64,000 nucleotides of DNA from the NCBI RefSeq assembly GCF_001984155.1, contig NZ_MTQO01000054.1, positions 868,001 through 932,000 of the forward strand, given 5' to 3'. A model generated the notes under the pieces. That model saw only the letters and a list, made by a program, of their open reading frames with translations, had not been told where the DNA came from and ran no database searches. Shown piece after piece: positions 7,240 to 59,419 of the stretch. Each line of letters begins with the position of its first letter. The first letter of the stretch is position 1. A program made the position numbers and the translations under genes. Source of the DNA: Actinosynnema sp. ALI-1.44. GTDB lineage: Bacteria > Actinomycetota > Actinomycetes > Mycobacteriales > Pseudonocardiaceae.

Positions 7240-7312
7240 CTGTGGTGGTTGGTCGACCGCCTGGGTGAGTCGAGACGTCTCGATGGCGTTGACGTTGCCC
7301 GAGATTGTCAGT

Positions 7313-7350: not shown

Positions 7351-7366
7351 GGTCCATCGGGGCAGG

Positions 7367-11171: not shown

Positions 11172-11746
11172 CGAGTTCCCGCCAGTTTTCTCTTATGGGC
11201 GAGTGTTGCATCAAATTCAATTCATCCCGTTTGCGGCGAGCACAGCGGCACCACCCGCATTGGCCACACATCCTGGTGCACAACGGTCGTCAGTATGATT
11301 CGACGGCGATCGTCGGAGCGGCACACGAGTTCTTGGACGGCTGGCCACTCGCGACATCGGCCTTCAGCGGTGGGAAGGCCACCGTCCACGCATCTGGGAC
11401 ATTCCGTTGACCATCACCGACAGCCCGGGCTGACCTGCTTGCTCAGCAGCGGGTGGGTCGGTTGCGGCTTCCTGGACACTTGACATCCGCACCGCAGCGG
11501 GTCGGCCACGTTTTCCGTCCTATTCGACAAAAGCTGCCCGCGAGTGCTCATTTGCTGACAACTATTCGGCGTTTTGGCAACGCATGACAAAGATGTCCTA
11601 CCTGTATTGATGCTTTTTTCGGGTCTTGCGCCGCGTGGCTTCGGTGATTAATTTTGGCCTGTCGTAGCGCGGCTGTAACGTACACGTTCCTTTTTGCCTG
11701 TCCTGTTTTCGCGCGCTCTTCTTACCTGCCGGGAGGATGCTCAGTG
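11172..11746. other. Intergenic region with AT-richer leader before the secreted FnIII protein
   Basis: 575 bases without a supportable gene. The left part is recombinase-cassette flank. From about 11520 the composition becomes clearly AT-richer (for example TGCTTTTTTCGGG near 11610 and GGTGATTAATTTTGG near 11645), which marks the promoter/leader region of the downstream secreted protein. GGGAGG at 11731-11736 is that gene's ribosome binding site. Confidence 0.55.
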
Positions 11747-43300: not shown

Positions 43301-44428
43301 CCGGAGATGACGCCGGAGATCGTCCGCGAGGCACTGGAAGCCCTCGTGAACCATCATGAAGTTCTCCGGATGGACCTCTCGCTCCGAGACGGCCTGTGGG
43401 AGCAGAGAGTCGGTTCCGGTACCGCGGAAATGACCATTGTCGACACGGATCGCTTGACGGAGACAGGAAAGACCGTTGTTGCCGATCTGCTCGGGCCCGG
43501 GCCGATGCTGCGGGCAGCATACCTGCGGACTCCCAACCAGGACCCAGTGTTGGTGCTGACCGTCCATCACTTCGCGTCCGACGCCGCCTCCGAGCGCGTC
43601 CTGCTCGGCGACCTGCGGCATGCGTGTGAGTCCCTGGTTGCCGGGCTACCCGTGGAACTCGAACCTGTCCCCGTCCCGTGGACTACGTGGGCGAAGCGGC
43701 AGGAACCTGTACGGAACAAGCACTTCTGGCTGCGTGAGCGCGTCGGGTCCATCGACGTCGGAGAAGGGCCGGTCGGGCACATCGTGCGGGAGGTCGACGC
43801 AGAGGGCGTGCTGGCGTTGCAGCGGTCGAGTCGGTCCGGGGTCGTCGAGATCCTGCTGGCCGCGCTGGGCAAGGCCGTGCGCAAGGAGTTCGGCTCCGAA
43901 CGGATGCTGGTCGACCTGGAGGGCAGCGCCCGTGAACTGGCCGACCTGCACCGGACCGTGGGCACTTGTACCACGTTGTACCCGGTTTCGGTCCCCACCA
44001 CCGGCCTGGCGGCAGCACGCTCGGCGGTCCGCGAGGTGCCTCGGCAAGGTGTCGACTACGGTGTCCTGCGGTACCTGAACCAACCGGCCGCGCGACTGCT
44101 CTCGTCCTGGCCGAACGCTGACATCCTGTTGGCGTACTTGGGAAGACGAGCCGACCAGTCGTTCGAGTACGTCACCGAAATCTGCGACCCTGCCCGGGAC
44201 ACCGGTCTGGGTATGGGCTACGCCGTCGAGCTGCGGTGCTCGCTCGCCGACGGCGTCCTGGTCACCGACTGGTGCCACCGGGCGAACCCGGAGGTCATCA
44301 CCCGCTTGGCCGACGCGCTGGTGACCGCGCTGGCCGACCTGGTCGCCGGTCCGGGGTTCGAGCTGGCCGACCTCGGCGGCGACGATTTCGCCGACCTGTT
44401 GGACGAACTGGGCGAGGAGATCGGCTGA
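40340..44428 (+). CDS. Hybrid PKS/NRPS protein KS-AT-PCP-E
   Basis: 1362 residues; ATG overlaps the preceding stop (ATGA). KS: Cys190 in VQTACSSSL, EAHGTGT, NIGHLEVVSG. AT: Ser610 in AGHSLGEFVAACV with NAFH at 704-707, a malonyl-CoA signature. The carrier has LGGDSVVAVRL (Ser913), the GGDS form typical of PCPs that precede epimerization domains. The last ~400 residues are E-like: HHFASDAAS at 1076 (E2), LEGSARE (for EGHGRE), RTVGTCTTLYPV (E5), VPRQGVDYGVLRYL (E6) and LAYLGR (for FNYLG). Several E catalytic positions differ (His in EGHGRE, Asn in FNYLG), so the E domain may be inactive. There is no KR, DH or ER, so a beta-keto group is left. The KS-AT type differs from the three upstream modules. 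Confidence 0.85.
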   Translation: MTSELSNMTTENAVAVVGMAGRFPGARDLTEFWANIAAGKESVRDVSVGELAAEGIPEDVFTHPSYVRRAAPVDGVREFDAEFFGFTPQAARETDPQQRLFIQTVWHALEDAAMDPRRCPPQTGVFATAATSSYFLYQLISQRDPATLVGHGVNAELTTLAAGTDKDYIATRVSHLLDLRGPSMAVQTACSSSLVAVHLAVQALLNQECELAVAGGTSIRVPHLAGYRHSPGWIVSADGRCRSFDADGDGTVFGSGVGAIVLKQLDRALEDGDPVRAVILGSAVNNDGALKMGFSAPSVDAQAEVIAEALAISGVDATDIGYVEAHGTGTKLGDPVEIAALATAFAGAKECVVGSVKPNIGHLEVVSGIAGLIKTVLALEHRLIPPVPHFRAANPDLELERTPFRIATELAEWTGPLRAGVSSLGVGGTNAHVVLQAAPERAVTTSTRPRILLLSAHTHDGVHDLRQRLAGRVASLPLADVAHTLDVGRGRHPQRYVAVARNAEHAAEVLRVDAHPLAAWVEPTENASVALLFPGQGAQYAGMARGLNQEPVFRKWYTHCATAFAGHGINVDDDPVRTDIAQAALFSVEYATAKLLESVGVIPAAVAGHSLGEFVAACVAGVMDLDTAIRVVAARGRIMADAPAGAMLSVRLPESVLDLPDGLSLAAVNDPGTCVISGPADRVVAFGAELAGKGVDTRPVATGNAFHSALMDDAAAEFASVMAGVPLAAPTIPLLSNITGTWMPATDAVDPDRWARQMRATVRFADQVAELLGEPGRVLVEAGPGRALTGSARRHDLWGPGHRAVPVLRQEREGVDDHDACLLALGKLWAIGVDVDLPREGRRISLPGYPFARTEHWVDVVPLDTIGPQVPTLAPRESEASDNATLLARLWSHVLGIEDIGPDANFFDLGGDSVVAVRLIDLAAARGVPLRSQDLFDHQTLGALTRHLEAVTEPEQDHDVPFTPLQARALESGDPLAWRVPLALRLLPEMTPEIVREALEALVNHHEVLRMDLSLRDGLWEQRVGSGTAEMTIVDTDRLTETGKTVVADLLGPGPMLRAAYLRTPNQDPVLVLTVHHFASDAASERVLLGDLRHACESLVAGLPVELEPVPVPWTTWAKRQEPVRNKHFWLRERVGSIDVGEGPVGHIVREVDAEGVLALQRSSRSGVVEILLAALGKAVRKEFGSERMLVDLEGSARELADLHRTVGTCTTLYPVSVPTTGLAAARSAVREVPRQGVDYGVLRYLNQPAARLLSSWPNADILLAYLGRRADQSFEYVTEICDPARDTGLGMGYAVELRCSLADGVLVTDWCHRANPEVITRLADALVTALADLVAGPGFELADLGGDDFADLLDELGEEIG

Positions 44429-47400
44429 TGGCCGTCGTGGACGTCTACCCCCTCACGTCGATGCAGGAGGGGATGCTGGTGGACACCCTCAACGCACCCG
44501 GCTCCGGCGTGTACTGCGAGCAGATCGCCATGACGCTGTGCGGCCCGCTGGATCCGGTGGCGCTGCGGGCCGCGGCGGACGCGCTGGTCGCCCGGCACGC
44601 GGTGTTGCGCACGGCGTTCAGTTGGAAACGGGACACCCCGTTGCAGGCTGTCCGCGAAGCGGCCAGGATGCCGTGGCAGGAGGTCGACTGGCGCGGGATC
44701 GACGCGGCGGCGGCCGAACGCGATTTCCGAGCCACAGACAGCGTGATGGGGTTCGAGCTGAACCGCGCGCCGCTGATCCGCGTCACCTTGGCTCGGCTCG
44801 GCACCGACCGCTGGCGTCTGCTGTGGACGTACCATCACATCGTCCTGGACGGTTGGTCCTTCGGGATGCTCTTGGCCGAGCTGGCCGACGAGTACGCGGG
44901 CAAGCGGGTCGAACCCGACCGTCGACCGTTCCGCGACTACGTGAGATGGCTGCGCGACCGTGACGCGGACAGGCTCGAACGCCACTGGAAGTCTGTTTTG
45001 GACGGTTACGAGCCGGTGTCGCCGGACCTTCCCCTGTCCGGAGAACGCACCTCCCAGGAGATCGTGGTCGAGACCGCCCGGCTGACAGACCGGCTGCGTG
45101 CCCGCCGGATCACACTGGGCACGGCTGTCCAAGGCGCGTGGGCGCTGTTGATGTCCCGCTACACCGGGCGCAGGGACGTGGCCGTGTGGGTGGCGTCGGC
45201 CACGCGTCCCACTGACGCAGGCGCGGCGTCGATGGTGGGCATGTTCGTGGAGACGCTGCCGTTCCGAGTGGACGCCGATCCGGACAAGCCCGCCGGCGAG
45301 TGGCTGGCGGACGTCCAGCGGGCCGCCGCCCGCGATCGCGAGTACGGCGGCCTGCCGCTGCGCCGCGTCCTCGACCTCGGCGCGCCGCCCCTTGACGCCG
45401 TCCTGTCCGTGCAGAACGCGGGTCACGACTCGTCGACCTGGCAATCCTTCGCCGATCTCGGCGTCGAGACCATGGACTACGCGCTGCGCACCAGCTTTCC
45501 GCTGATGATCAACGCCCTCCCGGTCGACGGTCTCAGACTCGGCGCGCACTCATCCACAGTGGACAAGCAGGCGGCCGGTCTGCTCCTCGGCCACCTGAAG
45601 ACCTTGGTGACCGGCCTCGCCGAGCATCCGGACCGGCCGCTGGGCGAGTTGGAGATGGCGACCGAGGACGAACGCCGGTCCATCGAGCTGTGGAACAACA
45701 CCGCGCGCACGGTGTCGTCCGAACCAGTGCACCGCCTGATCGAGGACCAAGACCCCGACCGGCTCGCCCTCATCGGCGACCGCACCCTGACCTACGGCGA
45801 ACTCGACGCGGAGTCCAACCGGCTCGCGCACTGGCTGCTCGGCCAAGGCGTCGGCCGGGACGACATCGTCGCCCTGCGGCTGGACCGGTCGGTCGAGCTG
45901 ATCATCGCCATCCTCGCCACCGGCAAGGCGGGGGCCGCGTTCACGGTACTGGACCCCACGTACCCGCAAGCCCGGATCGACGCCATTGTCGCCGACGCCA
46001 AACCCAAGGTCGTGCTCACTGCGGAGACGGTCGCGCACGGCCCGACCACACGCCCGGATGTCACCATCGCGCCGGACGACCTGGCGTACGTGGTCTACAC
46101 GTCCGGGTCCACCGGCAACCCCAAGGGGGTGATGATCGAACACCGGGCCCTGCGCAACGTCATCGAGTCGCACCAACGGTTCTGGCAGCTCGGACCCGAC
46201 GATGTCGTTCTCCAGTTCTGCGCGACGCCTTTCGACGCCGCGATCCTGGAGTTCTTCCACCCCCTCGCGTTCGGCGCACGCCTGGTTGTCAGCCGCGACC
46301 TGGTCCCCGGCCCCATGCTGGCCACCACGTTGCGAGAAAACGGAATCACCGCGTTGACGTGCACGCCGTCCGCCCTTGCCGCGCTCGGTGACGAGGACAT
46401 CTCCGGCGTGCGGACGCTGTCGATGGTGGGCGAGAAGTGCCCAGGGTGGCTGGTGCGCAAGCACGCCCGAGGTCGCCGGTTCTTCAACTTCTACGGACCC
46501 GCCGAGGCAGCCGTCACCGTGACCGGCCGCGAGTGCTTCGCCCACGAGGACGGCGACCCGGACATCGGCCGGCCCATCGCCAACATACGAATCCATGTGC
46601 TGGACGCGGACGGTCACCCGGTCCCGGTTGGCGTGCCGGGTGAACTGCACATCGCGGGCGTTGGACTGGCCAGGGGCTACCTCAACCAACCGGCCCTCAC
46701 CGAAAAATCCTTTATGCACTTCAGTGGCGAGCGGGTGTACCGGACCGGGGACGTGGTCCGGCGCACGGCGACCGGAGCGTTCGAGTTCCTCGGCCGCGCC
46801 GACCAGCAGATCAAGATCCGCGGCTATCGCGTCGAACCCGGCGAGGTCGAGACCGCCATGCTGGCGGACGCGTCCATCGACCAGGCCGTGGTCATCGGAT
46901 ACGGCGAAGGCGACTCCCGCGCGCTGGCCGCGTACGTCGTCGGTCGGGACGTCGATGTCCCGACACTGCGACAGACCCTGACCGCCACCCTGCCGCCCTA
47001 CCTCGTCCCCAGCTCGATCACCGTCCTCCCAGCGCTTCCGCTCAACCACAACGGCAAGGTCGACCGCGCCGCGCTCCCCGCCCCCGGCACCAGCGGGCAC
47101 ACGTCCGTCCGGCCACGCGAGGCGACCGAACTGGCTGTCGCACGGGTCTTCGCCGACACACTCGGCCTGGACCGGGTCGGCGCGACCGACAACTTCTTCC
47201 ACATCGGCGGCCACTCCCTGCTGGCTATCAAGGTGATCACGCGCCTGGGCCAGCACTTCGGGTGCGACCTGGACTTCCGGACGCTGTTCGAGCACCCGAC
47301 CGTGGAGGCGCTGGCGCGCTTTCTGCGCGCGGACCCCTCGGCACGCCGGGAATCACTCATCACCCCGTTGAAAGCCGGGGAAGGAGCTCCGCTGCTGCTG

Positions 47401-48168
47401 ATCCACCCGGCCGGCGGCAACGTCACGGCGTACCAGGAACTGGTCGACCGGCTGCCCGGCCCCGCGTGCGGTCTGGAGGAGTTCCCGGACATCCCGCAGG
47501 ACACCACTGCAGCCGACCTCGCCGACCGCTACACCAAGCTGCTGTCCGACCGCGACGGCCCGATCAGGCTCGGCGGCTGGTCGTTCGGCGGCATCCTCGC
47601 GTACGAGGTCGCTGTCCGACTCGCCGCTGCCGGGCACGATGTCGCACCCGTGCTGCTGTTCGATGCCGTCCTCCCGCTGCCCGCGCCGGACATCCCGGTA
47701 CCCGTGCTCAGCGCCCGCCGGTTCGGCCGGTTCGCGCACTACCTGGAGGTCACACTCGGCGTGCCGGTCGGCGTCGACCCGGACGCGCTGGCCGCGCTGT
47801 CGCCGGCCGACCAACTCGACCACTTCGTGGCCGCCTGCGTGGCCGCCGACATCGTCACTCCAACCGGGACCGACGTCCTCCGCCGCATCTACGCGTCCTA
47901 CCAACGCAGCATGGCCATCGCCGACCGCGCCAAGCCGACCCGCTCGGAACACCCGACCGTGCTGTTCCGGGCTGCCGACAGGCTCCCAGCCGGCGCCGTC
48001 GACCCGCAGTACGACCACCCGGACGGTGACGCGGGCTGGGGCCGGATCTGCTCGGCGCTGACCACGGTGACCGTGCCCGGCGACCACCTGTCGATGCTCG
48101 CGCCCCCGCACGTCGACATCCTCGCCGACACCGTCCTGGCCCACCTGGCGAGACGCGCTTGCCTGTGA
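44428..48168 (+). CDS. NRPS termination module C-A-PCP-TE
   Basis: 1246 residues, start TGATG-coupled to the hybrid gene. C domain: HH at 136-137 in YHHIVLDGWSFG, intact. A domain (~420-900): A3 YTSGSTGNPKGVMIEH (557), A5 FNFYGPAEAAV, A10 NHNGKVDRAAL. By hand alignment to GrsA the ten-residue code reads D-A-L-T-S-V-F-V-T-K, which I cannot match to a known amino acid. PCP: Ser930 in IGGHSLLAIKV. TE: nucleophile Ser1052 in GGWSFGGILAY and a final His in GDHLSML. With the beta-ketoacyl donor upstream this would form a beta-ketoamide; tetramate formation or simple hydrolysis are both possible. The last codons (ARRACL) come from foreign integrase sequence, but the TE fold appears complete. Confidence 0.92.
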   Translation: MAVVDVYPLTSMQEGMLVDTLNAPGSGVYCEQIAMTLCGPLDPVALRAAADALVARHAVLRTAFSWKRDTPLQAVREAARMPWQEVDWRGIDAAAAERDFRATDSVMGFELNRAPLIRVTLARLGTDRWRLLWTYHHIVLDGWSFGMLLAELADEYAGKRVEPDRRPFRDYVRWLRDRDADRLERHWKSVLDGYEPVSPDLPLSGERTSQEIVVETARLTDRLRARRITLGTAVQGAWALLMSRYTGRRDVAVWVASATRPTDAGAASMVGMFVETLPFRVDADPDKPAGEWLADVQRAAARDREYGGLPLRRVLDLGAPPLDAVLSVQNAGHDSSTWQSFADLGVETMDYALRTSFPLMINALPVDGLRLGAHSSTVDKQAAGLLLGHLKTLVTGLAEHPDRPLGELEMATEDERRSIELWNNTARTVSSEPVHRLIEDQDPDRLALIGDRTLTYGELDAESNRLAHWLLGQGVGRDDIVALRLDRSVELIIAILATGKAGAAFTVLDPTYPQARIDAIVADAKPKVVLTAETVAHGPTTRPDVTIAPDDLAYVVYTSGSTGNPKGVMIEHRALRNVIESHQRFWQLGPDDVVLQFCATPFDAAILEFFHPLAFGARLVVSRDLVPGPMLATTLRENGITALTCTPSALAALGDEDISGVRTLSMVGEKCPGWLVRKHARGRRFFNFYGPAEAAVTVTGRECFAHEDGDPDIGRPIANIRIHVLDADGHPVPVGVPGELHIAGVGLARGYLNQPALTEKSFMHFSGERVYRTGDVVRRTATGAFEFLGRADQQIKIRGYRVEPGEVETAMLADASIDQAVVIGYGEGDSRALAAYVVGRDVDVPTLRQTLTATLPPYLVPSSITVLPALPLNHNGKVDRAALPAPGTSGHTSVRPREATELAVARVFADTLGLDRVGATDNFFHIGGHSLLAIKVITRLGQHFGCDLDFRTLFEHPTVEALARFLRADPSARRESLITPLKAGEGAPLLLIHPAGGNVTAYQELVDRLPGPACGLEEFPDIPQDTTAADLADRYTKLLSDRDGPIRLGGWSFGGILAYEVAVRLAAAGHDVAPVLLFDAVLPLPAPDIPVPVLSARRFGRFAHYLEVTLGVPVGVDPDALAALSPADQLDHFVAACVAADIVTPTGTDVLRRIYASYQRSMAIADRAKPTRSEHPTVLFRAADRLPAGAVDPQYDHPDGDAGWGRICSALTTVTVPGDHLSMLAPPHVDILADTVLAHLARRACL

Positions 48169-48347: not shown

Positions 48348-48607
48348 GCTGCGACCTGAGCCTCAGCGTGTCTCAGCGCTTCGCGGTCGACTTGGTCCAT
48401 GTCGCCCTACACGCCGTAGCTCTCGTCATTGGTGAGTGCCGTGATGGCACAGGTGAGGCGGACTGGGCATAGGCGACAGATCGCTTTGCAGTCCGCTGCG
48501 GTCGCGCTTCCCGGCTCGGCGTCGATCCAGTCGACTTCTCGGTCTGCGTTTCGGCATGCTGCGTGCACGTGCCACTGCGGTGCATGCAGCGCCACGAGTG
48601 TCGTCAT
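48344..48607 (-). pseudogene. WhiB-family regulator with a nonsense codon in the conserved Trp position
   Basis: The intact frame would give 87 residues. The four iron-sulfur Cys are present: AACRNADREVDW, then DCKAICRLCPVRLTCAI. The conserved turn reads NDESYGV followed by TAG at 48407-48409 and then GDMDQVDREALRHAEAQVAA. WhiB proteins have G(V/I)WGG here, so a Trp codon (TGG) has become TAG by one change. The truncated product would keep the cluster ligands but lose the basic DNA/sigma-interacting tail. ATG 48607 overlaps the upstream gene stop (ATGA). This is part of the integrated-element debris. Confidence 0.75.
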
Positions 48608-49336
48608 GCAGCCGGACGAAGTGGGCCGCCGAGGATGTAGTCGGCGAGGTGGCGGGAGGCGGTGTTGAGCTGCGCTGCCACCTGATGGCGGTTCATACCG
48701 CGCCGCTTGGCCGCGGTTGATCGGTCTCCGTGGTCGAGGAGCACGTCGGAGACGAGGTCGGCTTCGTGGGGTGTGATGACGCCGGACAGCATGGCTCCTG
48801 CGAGGACGAGGTCCGGGTGCCCGTCGGCTGTGCGGGTGTCGATTGCGGTGTCGGGTGAGTTCGGACCGGGACATGGCCCGTCGCCTTTCGCTGTTGCAAG
48901 CTTCGTGGCCGCGCCGGAAGGCTGCCCAGTAGAGCTGGCCGAAGACCTTCGGCGAGCGTGCGTCGGCGACGTCGAGTGCTTGGAGGAAGCCCTCGAGTAT
49001 CTCAGAGTCCAGGTCGTTGCGGTCACCGCAGAAGCGGGAACCCAGTTTCCCGGCGATGTGCTTGAGACCGGGCATCATCATGGCGGCGGCGATGGTGGTC
49101 CACGGTTCCGGTGTCGCGTGTGCCCGTTGGACGAGTTCCTTCCACACGGCGTCCTTGCTCACCCAGCTCGTCTGTCGTTTGAGGAGCAGTACGCGCACGC
49201 GGTCCAAAGGGAGCTCCTCGTCGGGCAGGCCGCATCCGAGCGTCGCGCAGTCGAGGGTCAGCGGCTGCGGACCGGCGGCCATCGCGAGGAACCGCTGTTC
49301 GATCACGTCCAGGTGCGAGGGAGAGAGCGAGGTCAT
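48604..49336 (-). pseudogene. Frameshifted HTH-like gene of an integrated element
   Basis: Start ATG 49336 gives MTSLSPSHLDVIEQRFLAMA, then a helical protein with WVSKDAVWKELVQRAHATPE and SKVFGQLYWAAF-like sequence. Near 48880 the coherent reading moves to another frame and continues NSPDTAIDTRTADGHPDLVL, then ITPHEADLVSDVLLD and AAKRRGMNRHQVAAQLNTA, a helix-turn-helix resembling sigma region 4, ending at 48604. The family is familiar to me from actinomycete integrative elements upstream of WhiB, with unknown function. The single frameshift makes it non-functional as read. The stop overlaps the WhiB start. Confidence 0.6.
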
Positions 49337-49405
49337 CGGGGAGGTGCCTTTCGGAGAGGGGTCCATCTCACCGCCAAACCCGCCTCCTGCGACGCCCGAT
49401 GGAAA

Positions 49406-49437
49406 GGATTCACCGAAAAGGGTGGCGTGTCGCTGTT
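49406..49437 (+). promoter_or_regulatory. Conserved upstream box, copy A (before the SWIM gene)
   Basis: A 32-base segment beginning GGATTCACCGAAAAGGG and ending GTGTCGCTGTT matches a segment upstream of jetA (51358-51389) at about 26 of 32 positions, including an unbroken GTGTCGCTGTT. It lies about 70 bases before the SWIM gene start. A shared transcription-factor site or promoter is the simplest reading. Confidence 0.5.
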
Positions 49438-49507
49438 TGTGACTCCGTGCAGGTGTAGCTGGCGGGGGAACTTCGCTGCTTGCAGGTGCCTGGAAAGATG
49501 ACCAGCC

Positions 49508-51175
49508 GTGGCGGTGAGCAGGAGCACGGTGCGAAAGCTGGCTGACGAGAGGTCGTTCGAGCGGGGCGAGCGGTACTTCGCGGCTGGCCGGGTTCGGCGG
49601 GTCACGGTGAACGGGTCGACCGTGACCGCAACGGTGGACGGCACGCGGACTTATCGCGTGCGCCTTGATGTGACGCCGAAGGGTTTGAGCGGGCGTTGCT
49701 CCTGCCCGTACGGAGCTGACGGCGTGTTCTGCAAGCACTGCGTCGCTGCTTCGCTGGCGTGGCTGGAGCAAGGCGGTGAGGTGGGGGAGCCGCGCCCCAA
49801 ACCGCTGTCGGACAAGCGCTTGCGGTTGTTCCTTCGTGGTTGTGACCAGGCGTGGCTGATCGACCAGTTGATGACGGCCGCGAAATCGGATGGGCTGCTG
49901 CGTGCCCGGCTCGCTGCCGCGGCCGGGCAGGAGAACGCGTTCGATGACGGGGACATCAGGGACCGCCTGGAACGGGCCGTCTACATCCCGGACTTCGTCG
50001 ACTACGCCGAGGCGTACGGCTACTTCATGCACGTCGGTGAGGCTCTGGACGAAGTCGAACGACTGGTCGGAGCCGGGTTCGCCGATGCCGCGATCACCCT
50101 CGCCGAACACGCGCTGGAACTGCTGGAGTCCTCGGCCGAGCGGGTGGACGATTCCGACGGTGGGTTGTCCGAGGCGATCGCCCGCGCTGAGGAGATCCAC
50201 CTGGCGGCGTGCGAGGCGGGCTCATCGGACCCGGTGGAGCTGGCCGAGCGTCTGGTCACGCGTGCGGTGAGCAGCGAGTACGAGGTGTTCCTCGACGTGC
50301 TGCCCGAGTACGAAAAGGTTCTCGGCTCAGCGGGCTTGGCGCGGTACCGGGAACTCGTCGAGCAGGCCTGGCGGAAGTTGCCGCCGAAGAAGCCCAACGA
50401 CTACAGCGCCCGCCGCTTCGTCATCACCCACCTCATGGAGAACCTGGGGGAGTCGTCGGGAGGGGCAGATGGACTGATTGAGGTGCTGGCCCGGGATGTG
50501 ACGAGCGCCTATGACGTACTCCGCATCGCCGAGCGGCTGTGCACCGACGGCCGTGACGACGAGGCGCTGACCTGGCTGGAACGCGGTCTGTCCGACTTCG
50601 AAGCCGACTTCCGCCTGCGTGATTTGGCTGCCAAGATCCACGTGCGCGCTGGCCGACGCGACCAGGCGGGCGACATGCTCTGGGCCAACTTCACCGACCG
50701 ACCGAATCTGGAAACCTTCCGCGCGCTCCGCCAGGCCACCGCCGGAGGCTTTCCACCCTGGCGGGAACGCGCGCTGGCCTTCCTCGCCGATGCACTGCCC
50801 GCTACGGGATCCTGGTCGCCAGGTCGCTCAGCGTTGGTGGAGATCCTGCTGGACGACGATGAGATTGAGGCCGCCTGGCAGGCTGCTGTCGACGGCGGTT
50901 GCTCGGACGGTCTGTGGCTCCGCCTCGCGCGTACCCGTGCCGCGAGCCACCCGGCCGACGCCATTCCGATCTTGCTCCGCGCTGCCGACCGGGCGATCGA
51001 AGTCCGCAACCGTGACTCCTACCAGGCAGCAGCCCGTCTGCTAGCCGAGGCCAAGGTCCTGTTCGCCCGTTGCGACCGCGATGGCGACTTCTCCGACCAC
51101 ATGGCTGCGGTGCGCGACGCGCACCGCACGAAGTGGGCCCTGCGCCAGGAACTTGATTGGGCGCAGTTGCCCTGA
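49508..51175 (+). CDS. SWIM zinc-finger protein
   Basis: 555 residues. The N-terminal ~110 residues hold a beta-rich region and the SWIM finger CxCx(n)CxH: Cys64 and Cys66 in GRCSCPYG, Cys75 and His77 in VFCKHCVA. The rest is helical and repeat-like, with TPR-like features (TWLERGLSDFEADFRLRDLA, ILLRAADRAIEVRNRDSYQA). SWIM domains bind DNA or proteins and are often found with SNF2-type ATPases. GTG 49508 is the start. It lies upstream of the Wadjet genes in the same direction, 252 bases away, and shares an upstream box with jetA. Whether it is a functional partner of Wadjet is unknown. Confidence 0.8.
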   Translation: MAVSRSTVRKLADERSFERGERYFAAGRVRRVTVNGSTVTATVDGTRTYRVRLDVTPKGLSGRCSCPYGADGVFCKHCVAASLAWLEQGGEVGEPRPKPLSDKRLRLFLRGCDQAWLIDQLMTAAKSDGLLRARLAAAAGQENAFDDGDIRDRLERAVYIPDFVDYAEAYGYFMHVGEALDEVERLVGAGFADAAITLAEHALELLESSAERVDDSDGGLSEAIARAEEIHLAACEAGSSDPVELAERLVTRAVSSEYEVFLDVLPEYEKVLGSAGLARYRELVEQAWRKLPPKKPNDYSARRFVITHLMENLGESSGGADGLIEVLARDVTSAYDVLRIAERLCTDGRDDEALTWLERGLSDFEADFRLRDLAAKIHVRAGRRDQAGDMLWANFTDRPNLETFRALRQATAGGFPPWRERALAFLADALPATGSWSPGRSALVEILLDDDEIEAAWQAAVDGGCSDGLWLRLARTRAASHPADAIPILLRAADRAIEVRNRDSYQAAARLLAEAKVLFARCDRDGDFSDHMAAVRDAHRTKWALRQELDWAQLP

Positions 51176-51357
51176 TCAGCCGAGCTTACACTGCGGTGCG
51201 GGAGCAACCGCGCAGATTGAGATGTCTTCGAAAGGGCGGTCTCCACCAAGTCCGGTGCGACTCACCTTTGGACACCCCGCTCGTGTGCCGCTTCAGAATT
51301 AGCACCCGTACCTCGTGCGGATTGGTGATCATCCCTCCACGGCGCGGTTCAGCGGGA

Positions 51358-51389
51358 GGGTTCACCAGAACGGGTGATGTGTCGCTGTT
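51358..51389 (+). promoter_or_regulatory. Conserved upstream box, copy B (before jetA)
   Basis: GGGTTCACCAGAACGGG followed by TGATGTGTCGCTGTT, matching copy A at 49406-49437. A TACTCT at 51416-51421 could be the -10 of a promoter whose transcript would begin at the GTG 51428, giving a leaderless mRNA. Confidence 0.5.
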
Positions 51390-51427
51390 GTCGTCGGCTC
51401 GGCATCTTGCGTTCGTACTCTGGGCAC

Positions 51428-52756
51428 GTGATCGATCACGACGAGATGCCGGAGACCGAGGCACCCGCTGATCCGTGGTCGGCTCTGCTTCCAGGGCAAG
51501 AACTCGTCCCTGCCTACCTCACTTCGCGGTTCGCGGCGCAGTACCGGGTGATCGTCGATGTCCTGCTGGCCGAACAAGACACGAGCCTGACCGGGTTGTC
51601 CTATGACGAGGTGGCCGCCGGGGTTCGCGCTCGCCTCGCCGGACAGGTGCCGGCGGACGTGGTCGACCGCCTGCTCGCTCCCGAGGTCCTGCACCTCGAC
51701 GCGCGGTTGGAGCGATTGGTGCAGTGGCGGGTTCTGACCCGTTGGCAGGAGCCCGCCCGCTCGGGAGAGGACTTCCTGCGCCGCCGTGACCGGTACCAGC
51801 TCACCCCAAGAGCAGCCGGTCTGCACGTCTTCTGGTCGTCGGTCGACGACACCGAGGAGGCCACGGGTGATCTCACGTTGGCGCCTCGCGCTATCCACGA
51901 ACGTCTGATCGCCTTCGCGGAGTCGATTCGCCAAGCGGTGTACACCGATGCGGCGACGGAATTCCAGCAAGTCGGAGCCATGCACCAGGCGATGGCCACG
52001 GCGGCTCGCGGATGGCAGCGGACGTTGGCACACGCCTTGTCGGGTGGCCCAGACCGGGAGCACACCTGGGAGGCCCTTGGTTCCTGGTTCGGTGGTGCTG
52101 ACAGCCAGGCCCGAAGGCTGCGGCGCCAGCTGCGTGACCTGGTCGCTCCATGGGCGCGCAACATGAATCTTCTATTGGACACCGGTGGTGCGGTCACCCG
52201 CCGGGCCGAACTCCTGGCGTTGGCCGTCGCGGTCGAACGCGCTCCCGACGACGAGAGCGCCTGGCGAATCTGGGACACCGCAGTAGGAGCGTTCTCCGCA
52301 CGCCACCTGCTGCTGGCGCAGGACTCCGCTGACGAAAGCGACTTGAGCTGGACCAACGCGCCGCCCGCGCCGGTCACGGCCCGCTTCCGCGAACAAGGCG
52401 CGCGCGCCGCGGTCGGCAGGCGGACCAAGATCCCGGATTACTCGACTGGCAAGAGTGCCGCCCGACGGGCCAGGCTCGCCGCCCAGGCCGCCCGCAGCGG
52501 CGCGGAGGCGGCGCTGCGCCAGCGTTCCGGAACGCACCTGGCCGAGTGGGGTGAGATCACCGACGCTGAACTGAACCTGCTGTTGGAGTTCGTCGGGGTC
52601 GTGCGGCGGACGCGGTCGGAGAGTGCGGTAACCGGAGACGGTCGGTGGCGGATCACGCTGCGTCGACCGCCGCAAGCGCATGACACCACGAGCCTGCGCG
52701 CCGACAGCGGCAGCATGACGAGCTTGAACTGGTATTTCGGAATGGAGCCCGCGTGA
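51428..52756 (+). CDS. jetA: Wadjet subunit JetA (TIGR02677/DUF2397)
   Basis: 442 residues, mainly helical; matches the TIGR02677 pattern with YLTSRFAAQYRVIVDVLLAE near the front, LVQWRVLTRWQEPARSGEDF and YQLTPRAAGLHVFW in the winged-helix region, then long helices. JetA is the kleisin-like partner that links the SMC-like JetC, by analogy with type I Wadjet/MukF. GTG 51428 is taken as start; ATG 51446 six codons later is an alternative. The next gene overlaps by GTGA. Together with the following three genes it makes a complete system, which I place in Wadjet type II from memory of the domain names. Confidence 0.85.
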   Translation: MIDHDEMPETEAPADPWSALLPGQELVPAYLTSRFAAQYRVIVDVLLAEQDTSLTGLSYDEVAAGVRARLAGQVPADVVDRLLAPEVLHLDARLERLVQWRVLTRWQEPARSGEDFLRRRDRYQLTPRAAGLHVFWSSVDDTEEATGDLTLAPRAIHERLIAFAESIRQAVYTDAATEFQQVGAMHQAMATAARGWQRTLAHALSGGPDREHTWEALGSWFGGADSQARRLRRQLRDLVAPWARNMNLLLDTGGAVTRRAELLALAVAVERAPDDESAWRIWDTAVGAFSARHLLLAQDSADESDLSWTNAPPAPVTARFREQGARAAVGRRTKIPDYSTGKSAARRARLAAQAARSGAEAALRQRSGTHLAEWGEITDAELNLLLEFVGVVRRTRSESAVTGDGRWRITLRRPPQAHDTTSLRADSGSMTSLNWYFGMEPA

Positions 52757-53898
52757 ACCGCGAGGCCGCCGACCGGCAACGGGCGTTCGCCGCCCTACTC
52801 CGCTCGCCGGTGCTCGACCGGCACACTCACCCCGAGATATGGCCGCTGGTGCGGGTGCACCGGGCGACGCTGGGCGAGTGGTTCGCCCAGCGGCTCGGCT
52901 ATCGACTGGTGGTGACCGACTCAGCAGCCCGGCTGTTCAGGCTTCCTGTTGACGGTGTCGTCGTCGCGCCCCGACGGTTCAGGCCGCCGGCCCGGCGGGT
53001 GCTCGTGCTGGCCATCATGGCCGCAGCGGCGGCCGAGGATGCCGAGGACATCACCACCACCCAGGACCTGTCCGACCGGGTCCGCGTGCTTTCCACGCAC
53101 GAGGACGTTGAGCTTGCACACTACGACCCCGACCGGTTCGCCGAGCGCATGCTGTTCGTCAAAGCCGTCCACCTGCTGGTGTCCGTGGGCGCGTTGCGGC
53201 CGACCAGCCGTGACGACGAGGATCAGCGTGAGGGGTGGGCGCACCGCCGTGACGCGATCGGTGGCGCCTACGAAGTCCGCCGCGAGCTGCTGCTGCGCCT
53301 GGTCGACCCCGCCTCGTTGCGCGCCGCTCTCACCGCAGGACACGATGGAGGACCACCCCACGAAGCGGCGGCGCGGATCGGCTTGATGCGCAAGCTGGTC
53401 GAGTTGCCCGTGGTCCTGTACGAGGACCTCACGGACGCCGAGCGGCTCTACCTGACGGGTCAGCGCCATCGGGTCCAGACCTGGTGCGCGGAGATGACCG
53501 GCTGGGCGGTTGAACAACGCGCTGAAGGAATGGCGCTCATCGCCGCCGATGAGACAGACACGGACCTGCCGTTCCCGAGGCTGCGCGCCGCCGACTTCGC
53601 CAGCTTGATGGTGCTTGACGAGCTGTTGCGGACCCACGGTGCAGGTTCGGTCGTCACAGCTGACGAGCTGGCTTCAGCCGCCATCGCAGTCCGTGAGCGG
53701 CACTCCAAGGCGATGACCAATGATCTGCGCGTGGGCAACGCCGTGGAAACCACGGCACGCGATCTGCTGGGTGCGCTGGACCTGTTGCGTCCGACTGGAG
53801 CACTGGACAAGTGGCGCTTGACCGCCGCGGCGGCCCGCTACCGTAATCCGCAAGTGGTGGCCGTGAACGCGAGACTGGACGAGGAGGGTGCAGGTTGA
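52753..53898 (+). CDS. jetB: Wadjet subunit JetB (TIGR02678/DUF2398)
   Basis: 381 residues. Typical features of the family: REAADRQRAFAALLRSPVL at the start, GYRLVVTDSAARLFRLP, and FVKAVHLLVSVGALRPTSRD, a winged-helix-like segment. JetB corresponds to the MukE/KITE-like partner that binds the kleisin and DNA, by analogy. The GTG start overlaps the jetA stop (GTGA) and the stop overlaps the jetC TTG start (TTGA), so the subunits are translationally coupled. No damage is visible. Confidence 0.85.
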   Translation: MNREAADRQRAFAALLRSPVLDRHTHPEIWPLVRVHRATLGEWFAQRLGYRLVVTDSAARLFRLPVDGVVVAPRRFRPPARRVLVLAIMAAAAAEDAEDITTTQDLSDRVRVLSTHEDVELAHYDPDRFAERMLFVKAVHLLVSVGALRPTSRDDEDQREGWAHRRDAIGGAYEVRRELLLRLVDPASLRAALTAGHDGGPPHEAAARIGLMRKLVELPVVLYEDLTDAERLYLTGQRHRVQTWCAEMTGWAVEQRAEGMALIAADETDTDLPFPRLRAADFASLMVLDELLRTHGAGSVVTADELASAAIAVRERHSKAMTNDLRVGNAVETTARDLLGALDLLRPTGALDKWRLTAAAARYRNPQVVAVNARLDEEGAG

Positions 53899-56800
53899 CC
53901 CGACCGGGACCTGAACGCGAGCGGTGGCTGGCGGCAGCGATGACGGGTGGCCTCCCGGAGCCAGGTCTCCACCGCTGGCAGCCCTTGCGCGTGGGCATCG
54001 TCAACCTGTGGGAATACGACCAGGCAGAGTTCTGGTTCGCCGACGGCCGCCTGGTGTTGCGCGGCGGCAACGGTGCGGGCAAGACGAAGGTGCTCGAACT
54101 GACGACCTTGATGCTGCTGCGCGGGGAGATCGGTGCCTCCGTGCTCGACCCGTTCGGATCCCAGCACCGCACGATGCGCTTCAACCTGTTGCCCACGGGT
54201 GAGGATGACGACCCCCGTCCGCCTTCGGACGCCGGTCTAGGTTACGCCTGGGCTGAGTTCGGCAGGCTCGACGACGACGGTACCGCGCGGTTCTTCGTCT
54301 GTGGTCTTGGTGTCAGCGCGCGTCGCGGCAGCGGTACCTCCTCGGTGACCACGTGGCACCTGATCACCCACCTGCGTCCGGGACGCGACCTGAAGTTGAC
54401 CACGGCCGACCGGCCGCTCGACCAGAAAGAGCTCAAGAAGCTCCCCGGCGTCACGGTGCCCGACAGCGCCGCGAGATACCGCGCCAGGGTAGCCACCGAA
54501 CTGTTCGGACTGGGCTCCGACGCCTACGACAACCTGACCGAGCTGCTCAAGCAACTGCGCAAGCCCAAACTGGGGGAAAGGCTCAACCCCACCAGCCTGG
54601 CGGAGACACTGAGCGCGGCCCTGCCGCCCCTCGCGAGCGCGGAGATCACTCAGCTCGCCGACGGGTGGGACAACCTGGAGAAGCTGCGAACGGCCGTGGA
54701 TCAAACCCGTGGTGCGGCCGTGCAGTTGGCGGGGTTCGTACGCACCGCCTGGACTCCATGGGCGCGCACGGTAGTGCGCCACCGCGCCGACGCGCTGACT
54801 ACGGCCACCACAGAGCTGGACCGCACTACCAAAGACCGCCGAGCCGCGGAAACCGCGTTGACCACTGCCCGCACTGAAGCCGACAGGCTGGACGAGGACA
54901 TCAGCCGGGCGCGGACGCACCAGAGCGACCTCGGCACGGAGCTGCGCGAGTTGCTGGACAACAAGGCGTTCCAGGATGCCGTGAGCGCGGCGAGCCGCGT
55001 CGACGGGCTTCGTGAACAGCTCGGCGGCCTGGCCGAGCAACTGTTGGGAGTTGAGAAGCGCCGCATTGGGGCGGCAGCGGACGTGGCGGAAGCCGCCGAG
55101 GCGGAGGCAACCGCGGCTTCCGGCGTTGAGCAGGCCGAATCGGAAACGGTTCTGGCGTCCGAACACGTCGAGGCCGTCGGGCGCCCCGCCGGACTACACC
55201 AGTCGGTTGCCCGGCACCTGCCCGCTCGTGATGTGTCCGCGTTGCGCGCCGACCTCTCGGTCCGCCGGGACCGCTTCACCCAGTTGCAGCGGCTGCGTGC
55301 GGACTTCGACCGGGCCGAGTCGAACGCGGTGCGTTCCGCCGAGCAGTTGGCCGACCGGGAGTCGGACCTGAATGAGGCCGCCGAACGGCGGGAGCTGGCG
55401 CGTGACGGCGTCGAGTCCGCAGTGGACACCTTGCGCAGGCAACTCCGGGAGTGGAACGCGAGCGTCGTCCACGCCAAAGTGGACGAGCAAACCGTTGAGT
55501 CCTGGTGTGATCTGGTTGCCGAGCTGACCGCCGTGCACCCGTCGGGCGCTCCGGCCGAACAGCGCGGAATCTCCCCTGCGGCAGCGGTCGCCCGGCACGT
55601 GCAAGGGGTCCGCGACAAGCTGAGATCGCGGCGTTCGGCACAGGTCCACGAGCACGGTGCGCTCGTCGCGGACCAGGAGAAGGCCACAGCGGAACTGGCC
55701 GAAGCGCTCGACCGGACGGAGCGCCCGCCAACCCCACCAGACTCGTGGCGGCGTCGCGACAGGCCGGAGCCCGACGGCGGGCAGGGCGCACCGTTCTGGC
55801 GGTGTGTGCAGCCCGTCGACGAGTTGTCGACGGACGAGGTCGACCTACTGGAAGCGACCCTGGCCGCCGCAGGCGTGCTTGACGCCTGGCTGAGCACCGA
55901 CGGCGAGCTGATCACCGTGGAAGGCGGAGAACAAGCAGACACAGTCGTGCGCGCGGGAGGAACCCGAGTCGACGCGAACCTGACGCAGGTTCTGGAACCC
56001 ACTCCGGTCGGCGGTGTCCCACAGACCGCCATCCATGCCGTGCTCACCTCGATCGGCTGGCACGAGTTCCGATCCGGCGGCGATGCGACCGGGACCTGGT
56101 TGGCGGCGGACGGCACGTGGCGGTGTGCCGCCCTGTCCGGACGCGCCGAGATCGCCCAACCCGCCTCTTACCTAGGGGCAACTGCCCGTGAGTCCGCACG
56201 GCAGCGGGAGATCGACCGGCTGCGGGCCCGACTCGCGGAATTGGCGGACTCGATCAACGCGATCGAAGCCAGGATCGGGAAACTCGACGACGACCTGCGC
56301 CGCCTCGCCGAGGAGGCAGCGAGGCTTCCGGGAGAGCGCGTGGTCACCGACGCCGTCATAATCTTGCGGGAGAGGGAACGACAGGCGGCTGACAGTGAAC
56401 GTAAGGCGACCTCGGCCAGCAACACCCACCGTGCGAACGAAACCGCCAGGGACACCGCGTGGGCAGACTTCTCCGCGTACGCGGGCGAGCACGCCTTCCC
56501 ACTGGACAATCTGGCACGCCACGACGCGGCATTGCAGGTCTACCACCAGGCTGTGGCCGAGCTGGTTCGCCACAAGCAACTGCTCGACCTGCACACAGCG
56601 ACCCTCACACGCGTGCGAAGCGACCTGGCCGGCGCTCAGCGCAGACTCGCCGGGGTCGATATCGAACTGCGCGACCTGCGTGCGCGAGAGCGCAAGGCGC
56701 AGGTCCGCTTGCGCACCGCCGAAGAGGCGCTCACCAGCGATGTCCACGCGCAGCTGGACCGCCGCACCGAGCTTGACCGTCTGGTGGCACAGGTCGACCG

Positions 56801-58103
56801 CGAACTTGAGGAACTCGGGAAGAAGCGCATGGACGCGTTGGTCACCGTCACCAGAGCCGAAGGCACTCTCGACCAGCACGAGGAACGTCGGCAAGGCGCG
56901 GAACGCAAGCGAGATACTGCGCTTGCGGTGTGGTGGGAGGTGTATGACGCCAACCTCGCGCAGCCCGTCGGGTTGGAGGAACCGGAACGCCGAAGCGTGG
57001 AGTCCGCGCGCGAGTCGACCCGCGCCGCACGCCGGGAACTACCGGACCCAGGCGACGAGGACCGTGCCTGGCGGCTCTGCTACAGCAAGCTCGAAGCGCT
57101 GCGACAGGAGCTGCTGCCCGATCGGGATGCCCGCGTGCTGGAGTCGGAGCGGGACGGTGCGATCCAACGCGTGGTCGTCCTGGCCGACAGCTCCGCTGGC
57201 TGGCAGATGCCATCGGCCGCTGCGTACCTGCTCGCCGACCAGGTACGCGCGCAGGAGAACGCGTTCGACTCCGAACAGCAGCGAGTGTTGACCACGCTGC
57301 TCGGTTCGACGTTCATCGAGCACCTCAAGGACCGGCTGGATTACACCGCCCGGACCTTCACCGACATCAACAAGCAGTTGGCTGGCCATCCGACCCGGCA
57401 CGGGAACGCCGTTCAGTTGAAGTGGGAACCCGACCCCACCGACCCGGACGCGAGCACCGTGGTGGACGCGCTGACCCAGGGCTACCAGCAACTCTCACAC
57501 GCACGCCAGGAAACCGTGCGCTCCTTCCTCGCGCGCAAGATCGACAATGCCAGGGCAGACGCGGCGGCAGGGGGCTCCGCCGACTGGCGGGAGCAACTGT
57601 CCACCGCCCTCGACTACCGCGGCTGGCTGAAGATATCGCTGCAATACCGTCCCGGTTCGACCAGTCGTTGGGTGCCGTTCGACGCCGCCAAACACGGCGC
57701 CAAGTCCGGTGGTGAGAAGGTCGTGCTGCTGTCCCAGCCACTGTTCGCTGCCGCAGTCGTCGCCTACAACGCGGCCGACGGGCACGCCCCGCGTTGCGTG
57801 TGGCTGGACGAGGCGATGACCGGTGTGGACGACGAGATCAAGGCCTCGTTCATGGGCCTGACGGTGAGCTTCAACCTGGATGTGATGCTGACCGCCCACG
57901 ACGAGTGGTGCAAGTACCCAACCGTCCCGGCGGTGGCCGTGTATGACCTGGCCAGGCACAAAGGGCTGCCCGGAGTCGATGCCGTTCCGTACCTGTGGTG
58001 TGGCGGTGAGTGGACCGCGGTCGCACTCCCGATCTCTGACGTGCGCGCGGACGAGACGCTGCTGGCGGCGGATGGCCTGTTCGCCGAGGTGGATGCTGAG
58101 TGA
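53895..58103 (+). CDS. jetC: Wadjet SMC-like ATPase JetC (TIGR02680)
   Basis: 1402 residues. N-terminal ATP-binding half with Walker A GGNGAGKTKVLEL (Lys63). A long region of heptad-like Glu/Arg/Ala helices (about 290-1210) forms coiled coils with a hinge near 590-720. The C-terminal half has the signature SGGEKVVLLSQ (~1272) and Walker B RCVWLDEAMTGVDDE (Asp1305, Glu1306). This is the head-hinge-head architecture of SMC/MukB ATPases, which extrude DNA loops. Type I Wadjet uses this to detect small circular DNA for cleavage by JetD. TTG start overlaps the jetB stop. The length is normal for the family. Confidence 0.92.
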   Translation: MTRPGPERERWLAAAMTGGLPEPGLHRWQPLRVGIVNLWEYDQAEFWFADGRLVLRGGNGAGKTKVLELTTLMLLRGEIGASVLDPFGSQHRTMRFNLLPTGEDDDPRPPSDAGLGYAWAEFGRLDDDGTARFFVCGLGVSARRGSGTSSVTTWHLITHLRPGRDLKLTTADRPLDQKELKKLPGVTVPDSAARYRARVATELFGLGSDAYDNLTELLKQLRKPKLGERLNPTSLAETLSAALPPLASAEITQLADGWDNLEKLRTAVDQTRGAAVQLAGFVRTAWTPWARTVVRHRADALTTATTELDRTTKDRRAAETALTTARTEADRLDEDISRARTHQSDLGTELRELLDNKAFQDAVSAASRVDGLREQLGGLAEQLLGVEKRRIGAAADVAEAAEAEATAASGVEQAESETVLASEHVEAVGRPAGLHQSVARHLPARDVSALRADLSVRRDRFTQLQRLRADFDRAESNAVRSAEQLADRESDLNEAAERRELARDGVESAVDTLRRQLREWNASVVHAKVDEQTVESWCDLVAELTAVHPSGAPAEQRGISPAAAVARHVQGVRDKLRSRRSAQVHEHGALVADQEKATAELAEALDRTERPPTPPDSWRRRDRPEPDGGQGAPFWRCVQPVDELSTDEVDLLEATLAAAGVLDAWLSTDGELITVEGGEQADTVVRAGGTRVDANLTQVLEPTPVGGVPQTAIHAVLTSIGWHEFRSGGDATGTWLAADGTWRCAALSGRAEIAQPASYLGATARESARQREIDRLRARLAELADSINAIEARIGKLDDDLRRLAEEAARLPGERVVTDAVIILRERERQAADSERKATSASNTHRANETARDTAWADFSAYAGEHAFPLDNLARHDAALQVYHQAVAELVRHKQLLDLHTATLTRVRSDLAGAQRRLAGVDIELRDLRARERKAQVRLRTAEEALTSDVHAQLDRRTELDRLVAQVDRELEELGKKRMDALVTVTRAEGTLDQHEERRQGAERKRDTALAVWWEVYDANLAQPVGLEEPERRSVESARESTRAARRELPDPGDEDRAWRLCYSKLEALRQELLPDRDARVLESERDGAIQRVVVLADSSAGWQMPSAAAYLLADQVRAQENAFDSEQQRVLTTLLGSTFIEHLKDRLDYTARTFTDINKQLAGHPTRHGNAVQLKWEPDPTDPDASTVVDALTQGYQQLSHARQETVRSFLARKIDNARADAAAGGSADWREQLSTALDYRGWLKISLQYRPGSTSRWVPFDAAKHGAKSGGEKVVLLSQPLFAAAVVAYNAADGHAPRCVWLDEAMTGVDDEIKASFMGLTVSFNLDVMLTAHDEWCKYPTVPAVAVYDLARHKGLPGVDAVPYLWCGGEWTAVALPISDVRADETLLAADGLFAEVDAE

Positions 58104-59419
58104 CGACCACGATCCCGCCCGGCATCAAGGACTGGGCACGCCTCCCAGGTCCTGCGGCTGTGCTCGACGCCGTCCACACCCGCGCCAGACGAGGACACCG
58201 CACCGAGACGGGAACGCTCACCTCCGTCCCATTGACCGCAGAGCAGCGTCGGCAGGTCGCGTTGCTGCTCGGCACCCGGTGGGAACTGTCCGGTAAACCC
58301 GTCCGTCTCCAAGACCTCGCGGCGAAGCTGGCCGAACACCACCTGACCGTGCGCGGACTCGTCGAGGCACTGCACGGCGAACAGATCGAACCCGACAAGG
58401 CTCACCGCAGCCGAGCCCAAGCCGAGGCAGCCGCTGAGCGTGACCGCGCGGCCACGCATCTGACCGAGTCGGGTGTGGCTCCAGACGTGGTGGAGAGGTG
58501 GCTGTCCGACACCGGTTTGCCCCGGCCAGGCTCGGGTGAGCTCGAGGCCCTGGCTGAACAGGTGGCGACCGTCGGCACCCGACTGCGCAACACGAGCGGC
58601 GGGATACGACTCGCCCAACTCGCCGCGGACGCCCTGCACGACGCCCACGCGCTGGATGCCGATCGGCAACTGGGTCGCGGAGTGGCGCGTCTTCTGGCGA
58701 TCGTGCACGACCTGCCCCGACCACAACGAGCCGGTCGAGCCTGGCGCGCGGCGTGGGCCGGTGCGGGAGTGATGTGCGACGGCGTATCGTCCCGTGTGCT
58801 GGCGTTGAACCTCACACTGACCGGTGAATCTCCGGCGGCGAGGCTGTGCGCCGCCGCTCCCGGCGAGCCCGTCTGGCTGACTCTTCGTTCGCTCACGGGC
58901 ACGTGGACCGCTCCCGCGAGCGATGTCTTCGTGTGCGAGAACCCCACCGTCGCGGAAGCTGCCGCCGACGCGCTCGGCCAGACCTGCCCACCACTGGTGT
59001 GTACCGATGGGATCGCCTCCGGCGCCGCCCTCGACCTCCTCGCTGGGCTCGCTACCACCGGCTGCACGATCCACGCGCGGGCAGATTTCGACCCGGCAGG
59101 GTTTACGATCGCCGACCAAGTGCTCTCTGTGGTGCCCAGTGCGCTGTCGTGGCGTTTCAACGCGCGAATCTACGCCGATGAATGCGGCCTGAGCGCTCAC
59201 CACGACGCTCCCGACGATCTTGCGACCGCTGTCGCCGGATTACGGGTCGTCTACGACCGCGTGCGTTCCCCGGTGCACGAGGAGCGTGTGCTCGCTCTGC
59301 TGCTGTCAGACCTTGCGGTGGGAGCAGGTATCCCTACCAAGACCTCGGTGTCCAGCGATACGCCGCCTGTGATGGTTGGATACGGCCCTCGGCATGCGCA
59401 GTGTCGTGATACGAAATGA
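58100..59419 (+). CDS. jetD: Wadjet Toprim nuclease JetD (TIGR02679; DUF3323-DUF2399)
   Basis: 439 residues. The N-terminal DUF3323-like region (residues ~1-260) is followed by a Toprim fold: the catalytic Glu280 in DVFVCENPTVAEAA and the DxD pair Asp329/Asp331 in ARADFDPAGFTIADQ. Toprim domains of topoisomerases and OLD/JetD nucleases cut DNA with two metals. The GTG start overlaps the jetC stop (GTGA). A hairpin follows the stop, so the Wadjet operon ends here. Key residues are all present and the four-gene system looks intact. Confidence 0.88.
   Translation: MTTTIPPGIKDWARLPGPAAVLDAVHTRARRGHRTETGTLTSVPLTAEQRRQVALLLGTRWELSGKPVRLQDLAAKLAEHHLTVRGLVEALHGEQIEPDKAHRSRAQAEAAAERDRAATHLTESGVAPDVVERWLSDTGLPRPGSGELEALAEQVATVGTRLRNTSGGIRLAQLAADALHDAHALDADRQLGRGVARLLAIVHDLPRPQRAGRAWRAAWAGAGVMCDGVSSRVLALNLTLTGESPAARLCAAAPGEPVWLTLRSLTGTWTAPASDVFVCENPTVAEAAADALGQTCPPLVCTDGIASGAALDLLAGLATTGCTIHARADFDPAGFTIADQVLSVVPSALSWRFNARIYADECGLSAHHDAPDDLATAVAGLRVVYDRVRSPVHEERVLALLLSDLAVGAGIPTKTSVSSDTPPVMVGYGPRHAQCRDTK

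Follow-up and report, generated by a model that had tools for sequence, protein, structure and literature searches.

A conserved box ahead of SWIM and Wadjet type II genes in Actinosynnema sp. ALI-1.44 as a candidate regulator site of an actinomycete defense locus

The window, by which we mean the whole 64,000-nucleotide stretch of the Actinosynnema sp. ALI-1.44 genome that was analyzed, contains a WhiB-like gene and a gene that we call X on the minus strand, followed by box 1, a SWIM-DUF6880 gene, box 2, jetABCD and HsdM (Table 1). X and its WhiB-like neighbor were absent from the earlier note on this DNA. The four jet genes are present as adjacent frames in the order jetA-jetB-jetC-jetD, and their best PADLOC matches are JetA2, JetB2, JetC2 and JetD2, as in Wadjet type II; with NCBIfam, TIGR02680 (JetC) alone scored above its cut-off, and TIGR02677, 02678 and 02679 fell below theirs. 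The locus differs from Wadjet type II in its short JetA, in the box ahead of it and, in part of the clade, in the nearby X and WhiB-like genes. An HsdM gene (59616-61283) adjoins Wadjet; in a relative (G383; relatives are given as genomes, G, or loci, L), Wadjet II is likewise followed by an HsdM, 93.6% identical, and an 88.6% identical one lies near X in G101. On the other side, a long ORF of 1310 aa (44236-48168) carries GWSFGG close to its end and probably marks where a peptide or polyketide synthase cluster ends.

Table 1. Features of the X-SWIM-Wadjet locus, in window positions
Feature	Position	Strand	Remarks
WhiB-like gene	48407..48607	-	overlaps end of X; early end at GVWGG motif here
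Gene X, divergent, predicted sigma-factor-like regulator	48604..49336	-	frameshifted; pieces approximately residues 1-161 and 161-242
Box 1	49405..49437	+	between divergent gene X and SWIM gene
SWIM zinc finger + DUF6880 protein, 555 aa	49508..51175	+	PADLOC candidate PDC-S62
Box 2	51357..51389	+	upstream of jetA; TTCACC at -67 relative to GTG at 51428
TACTCT, putative -10 of leaderless jetA promoter	51416..51421	+	conserved TA(A/C/G)(C/T)CT, 6-7 nt before jetA GTG
jetA, Wadjet type II (DUF2397), 442 aa	51428..52756	+	67-68 residues shorter than four relatives
jetB, Wadjet type II (DUF2398)	52753..53898	+	PADLOC best match JetB2
jetC, Wadjet type II (SMC-like)	53895..58103	+	PADLOC best match JetC2
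jetD, Wadjet type II (DUF3323/DUF2399)	58100..59419	+	PADLOC best match JetD2

Three genes of the window depart from their relatives. The frameshift in X falls about two thirds along its length. The WhiB-like gene stops at GVWGG, presumably the WhiB-like (Wbl) motif, and does not show the full pattern of four cysteines and GVWGG, unlike a copy from a relative (L033), which has both and matches Pfam WhiB at E 4e-17. JetA, at 442 aa compared with 509-510 aa in G383, G009, G175 and G237 (the G344 row, being out of frame, was excluded), has a single in-frame gap mid-protein and is therefore not a full-length type II JetA. Intact X, WhiB-like gene and JetA are all present in relatives. The X frameshift, the WhiB-like stop and the JetA loss are either sequencing errors or marks of a decaying locus; taken at face value they suggest that the locus may be decaying here, and the box in this genome may be a relic.

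The earlier note had described the two boxes (49406-49437 and 51358-51389) as alike at about 26 of 32 positions in otherwise differing DNA, and both observations hold: the likeness is exactly 26/32, or 27/33 with one extra base on the left, and the 40-base flanks match at 10/40 on the left and 7/40 on the right. Each box spans an imperfect TCACC-N6-GGTGA dyad, a putative site, and the TTCACC of box 1 lies 73 nt from the ATG of X and 99 nt ahead of the GTG of the SWIM gene. We built a pattern, TTCACCNNAANGGGTGNNGTGTCGCTGTT, from both window boxes, so that their own match is true by construction; allowing up to 3 mismatches, it matched the window at these 2 places and none of 100 dinucleotide shuffles, and the genome scan that the note had proposed turned up no further site in the entire 11.7 Mb. 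When 390 genomes of the family were scanned, 17 of them contained 21 places in total; the reversed pattern, used as a control, gave 0 matches in the same 390 genomes. Every one of the 16 places with at most 2 mismatches, the window's own 2 and 14 in relatives, is at gene X, at a JetA2 or SWIM gene, or at both. The remaining 5, each with 3 mismatches (L005, L006, L014, L016 and L018), are not at X, Jet or SWIM genes; L005 is upstream of a helicase with restriction-enzyme-like matches. From an order sample of 397 genomes, the 318 outside the family yielded 2 matches, both with 3 mismatches. The worry that the box might occur widely upstream of unrelated genes is thus not borne out, since sites with at most 2 mismatches are confined to one kind of locus in the 390 genomes. 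We also considered a viral element and rejected it, as the exact pattern TCACCNNAACGGGTGNNGTGTCGCT gave 0 matches in viral contigs.

Upstream of jetA the box has a near-constant position. Every JetA2 gene of at least 75% identity with a readable start (10 of 10, window included; G019, G018 and G264, which have no readable 5' end, are excluded) carries it with 0-6 mismatches at a spacing of 67-68 nt. The interval between box and jetA drifts except for TA(A/C/G)(C/T)CT, 6-7 nt ahead of the GTG, which is probably the -10 of a leaderless jetA promoter; no -35 was recognized by eye upstream of jetA. Three boxless JetA2 genes at 59-66% identity also have TANNNT 7-8 nt before their start, so the leaderless promoter seems older than the box, which would be an addition in this clade.

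X has no sequence match in Pfam, NCBIfam, PADLOC or PDB, and an already named family was rejected because short X matched nothing in Pfam (E 0.1), NCBIfam (E 0.05) or PADLOC (0.01); weak HTH-type matches appeared in PHROG (E 0.1) and, for one relative, with Pfam HTH_8 (E 0.008). An AlphaFold2 model of a relative's X, built from 50 sequences (pLDDT 87, pTM 0.63), gave 376 Foldseek matches at E <=10 and 0 at E 0.001 or better, the best being 7lq4, WhiG, at E 1.9e-3, with TM mostly 0.2-0.3. The 50 listed among these 376, identified from their titles, lengths and chain letters, are all sigma factors or chains of polymerase-sigma entries, some of which we take to be the sigma factors. X is thus predicted to be a sigma-factor-like regulator whose modeled fold may resemble that of the sigma-70 family (WhiG, SigE and ECF types, with sigma2 and sigma4 folds); it differs from that family in lacking a sequence match and in weak global scores, and its promoter role is putative. 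Searched against plasmid and phage records, the X protein matched a single plasmid record (32% identity) and no phage record.

Scanning the X alignment against a single genome per species (84,980 species) returned 182 relatives, of which the best 80 were retained: 15 loci with a short X (at least 44% identity) and 65 with a longer, more distant X. The short-X hosts are Lentzea, Amycolatopsis, Actinokineospora, Solihabitans and Kutzneria, and a WhiB-like gene stands at the end of X in 8 of these 15 named loci (L112-L119). Three other arrangements were seen among X loci. L024 (G152, 7068-11383) has X and box beside a phage-type integrase and a replication gene that is presumably RepSA-like, as in actinomycete integrative elements; L072 (13091-14757, the same as L122), from Lentzea albidocapillata subsp. 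violacea, has two different copies of X lying end to end next to Wadjet I; and the distant X copies L056-L058 have a GCGACACC-N6-GGCGTGTCGC-like palindrome upstream, at the expected place of the box.

We inspected 30 X loci for the box and found it (up to 7 mismatches) in 15, a partial dyad in 2 (G058, X identity 61%; G249, 53%) and neither in 13. Where relatives have the box, it lies 66-82 nt from the X start, and it is present in every case in which X has at least 69% identity and its 5' end. The boxless X genes comprise those at 50-54% (G222, G223 and G081) and at 42-46% (G090, G101, G136, G104 and G219), together with G165 (75%, 5' part missing), one fragment and three at 36-37%; G378, with X within 42-47%, has the box with 6 mismatches. 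Within the gap between X and the cargo, ten close loci share three conserved islands, namely the X ribosome site, a CATCTCAC.gCC.AA.CC block that is probably X's own promoter, and the box.

The genes behind the box vary. Wadjet occurs in 7 of the 15 short-X loci (type I in L122 and L126, type II in L114, L120 and L124, type III in L112 and L123) and, with the same profiles, in 0 of the 65 long-X loci, a contrast whose Fisher p of 2e-6 is uncorrected for shared ancestry and serves as a guide only. These assignments are based on JetA, JetB and JetC, and short JetD profile matches overlapping other frames (L023, L031 and L206) were treated as artefacts of our home-made profile. The remaining short-X loci hold SWIM genes without Wadjet (L115-L117, all partly visible owing to contig ends), a GmrSD-like gene (L113), type I restriction genes (L119, L125) and a SWIM remnant (L118); at L121, which is G165, no defense gene was recognized. 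Metabolic genes were among those tested at the X loci of G165 and G378, and DndC/DndD-like genes lie at that of G104. At box loci, Wadjet II is found in the window, G009, G237 and G383, and also, without X, in G175 and G344; Wadjet I is found at a second locus of G383, and other cargo includes SWIM genes and a GmrSD-like PDC-M55C (G233). In G177 (L026) and G238 (L031), Wadjet III and Wadjet I, respectively, directly follow the box and an N-terminal JetA2 remnant, an arrangement that we read as cargo exchanged behind the promoter.

Since the box is specific, conserved, placed at promoters and common to several defense cargos, common regulation is the best reading of the genes that bear it. Our leading account, held tentatively and with slightly less than even confidence, is that the box is a transcription-regulator site upstream of the core promoters of the locus's defense genes and that the regulator is most likely X with its WhiB-like partner; we are considerably more confident that the box is a regulator site than that X reads it. 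Transcription of X runs away from box 1, so that a box between X and the first cargo gene could set both, and a second box before the second cargo gene (here SWIM, then jetABCD) would make a two-promoter regulon. Box 2 would lie at about -67 to -39 of the jetA promoter, just above the place of a -35 and over the conserved -10, which would drive a jetA transcript lacking a leader. Such a position above the -10 is that of an activator or of a blocking operator, and the box may accordingly act as an activator site or as an operator that blocks polymerase, with different defense modules exchanged behind it. That the box is bound, that X binds it and which sign the control has are points that we infer from sequence.

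The most serious alternative, which we regard as possible though less probable than the leading account, keeps the box as a regulator site and assigns it to a host-encoded reader other than X, such as another WhiB-like protein or a global activator, leaving X as a neighbor that is perhaps under the same control. Five genomes (G175, G344, G224, G377 and G371) have JetA2 boxes without a short X, and there the box is kept above its flanks (30/33 compared with 11/26 in G344; 24/33 compared with 8/26 in G371); an X search at E 1e-5 matched 183 genomes, none of them G224, G377 or G371, and several X genes at 42-54% identity are, as listed above, boxless. No other regulator near the box was obvious among the ORFs listed for X-less loci. 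However, a TCACY-N5-7-RGTG dyad lies upstream of X in 9 of the 15 short-X loci and in 0 of the 65 long-X loci (shuffle expectation 1.1), including 5 of the 7 named loci in which a short X accompanies Wadjet (it is absent in L123 and L126), which argues for X. In G224, moreover, a retained 48-nt stretch resembles what lies on the X side of the box, which points to a probable loss of X in that genome; such loss may explain some X-less boxes. Box mismatches were 0, 0, 1, 1 and 0 with X and 2, 2, 4, 5 and 4 without it (one-sided p 0.005), in a comparison confounded with relatedness, the with-X loci being closer relatives with closer flanks; the window, as the reference, was left out, G058 (X elsewhere in the genome, 6 mismatches) was listed apart, and G009 was scored as with-X though its X is broken.

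An action of the box in RNA appears very unlikely. In this scenario a TCACC/GGTGA hairpin, or a cysteine-rich upstream frame starting from the box GTG, would attenuate the downstream gene. Several boxes do read V-x-C-R-C-C or similar, and among the changes in the arms some preserve G-U pairing and one is compensatory, but over the 24 boxes of alignment A3 pairing (93.9% versus 93.6% when shuffled) and covariation (0.226 versus 0.220) are no better than in shuffled sequence, leaving the hairpin unsupported. A3 was drawn from 28 collected boxes by leaving out G236b and the G383 JetA2 box (near repeats), the G237 SWIM box (one base short) and the G242 SWIM box (damaged). As for the upstream frame, Cys codons after the first are lost in several relatives (G058, G137 and G108), and the conserved -10 lies downstream of it, between box and jetA, so that a message from that -10 would not contain the box.

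We give similarly little credence to the proposal that the two boxes are a duplication left when the SWIM gene was inserted between X and jetA and have no regulatory role. The boxes are indeed direct repeats flanking SWIM, the SWIM-less relatives G383 and G009 have X-box-jetA, and the window pair, at 27/33, is slightly closer than the cross-type mean of 25.2. Mean likeness within types is nonetheless higher (26.5/33 among 12 JetA2 boxes and 28.2 among 4 SWIM boxes), with the window JetA2 box matching that of G383 at 32 positions and the window SWIM box matching one of G236 at 29; the box types are therefore old, and a recent duplication is disfavored. Conservation of the box above its flanks and its fixed spacing to jetA further imply selection.

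The earlier note had linked the SWIM protein to Wadjet as a possible accessory component under a common regulator. The protein matches most of the PADLOC model PDC-S62 (SWIM + DUF6880; residues 5-542 of 555, model 11-551 of 566, E 2e-46), which to our knowledge is a candidate by name only, with no known function; its own structural model (pLDDT 62) was too poor for comparison. Homologues occur in 203 of the 390 genomes at E 1e-10, most of those listed below 40% identity. Among 17 places with at least 58% identity we examined 16, leaving out a G214 fragment (118 residues, 64%). Seven lie at a box/X locus, namely the window, G242, G237, G014, the second copy of G238 and two G236 fragments on short contigs whose far side is only partly visible; Wadjet follows in three of these (type II in the window and G237, type I in G238), and the copies in G014, G238 (second) and G236 are broken or fragmentary. 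The other nine (G244, the first G238 copy, G240, G226, G378, G077, G073, G069 and G128) are solitary, with no box (up to 6 mismatches), X or Wadjet within about 19 kb. Two of these, G244 and the first G238 copy, have the same CAGGAT motif before their start and no box, which indicates that the box belongs to the locus and not to SWIM genes, and boxless solitary genes rule it out as a general part of SWIM promoters. A same-face arrangement of the box before jetA and SWIM, suggested by the window spacings of 67 and 99 nt, was likewise set aside, as the distance from box to SWIM start ranges over 93-99 nt in 7 loci and is not fixed. An accessory role of the SWIM protein in Wadjet, with the box marking the joint system, is the least probable of the readings considered here: Wadjet stands directly behind 3 of the 16 close SWIM places, and two more distant pieces (about 47-56% identity, G214 and G157) lie less than 10 kb from Wadjet I and II and have neither box nor X, but nine of the 16 are solitary and each gene is found without the other at box/X loci (SWIM with no Wadjet seen in G242 and G014, Wadjet in G383, G009 and G177). 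From the earlier proposal, common regulation is retained, and the SWIM protein as a fifth Wadjet component is unsupported; the G214 and G157 pieces speak against a purely random placement of SWIM relative to Wadjet. We read the SWIM gene as an interchangeable cargo among several and, on its PADLOC match, as a candidate defense gene in its own right.

A broader version of the regulator-site account would have X and its WhiB-like partner form a new family of sigma-like defense-locus regulators reading a portable 33-bp promoter box, and the X-box unit serve as an exchange locus that swaps all three Wadjet types, restriction systems, GmrSD-like genes and SWIM genes under one control; this wider claim we consider doubtful for now. 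The nearest described parallel to the X-box locus is BrxR, a family of WYL-domain regulators of defense islands (Picton et al. 2022, PMC9122601). There, too, a regulator gene lies beside diverse defense systems, and the island has two similar boxes, R-BOX1 and R-BOX2, one half-site being better kept than the other (PMC9122601). The X locus is likewise a regulator gene beside varied defense systems with two boxes in one island. In contrast to BrxR, X gave no WYL match with either Pfam or NCBIfam, has a predicted sigma-factor fold, is often paired with a WhiB-like gene and occurs in Pseudonocardiaceae-like actinomycetes; and whereas BrxR is a demonstrated repressor (PMC9122601), control through X and the box could be of either sign.

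In the open-licence PMC literature we found no report of Wadjet control by a sigma-like or WhiB-like protein, of Wadjet linked to a SWIM zinc finger, or of a defense-island sigma factor in Amycolatopsis, and, as far as we searched that literature, how Wadjet is switched on is apparently unreported. Because Wadjet is directed at plasmids and might carry a cost when left unrestrained, having a dedicated regulator and the site it uses would make the control of the system directly testable. If the proposal is true, the box would serve as the control site for a regulator locus that has not been described before and behind which varying defense systems are placed in soil actinomycetes, and X with the box would be a marker for finding further defense cargo in actinomycetes.
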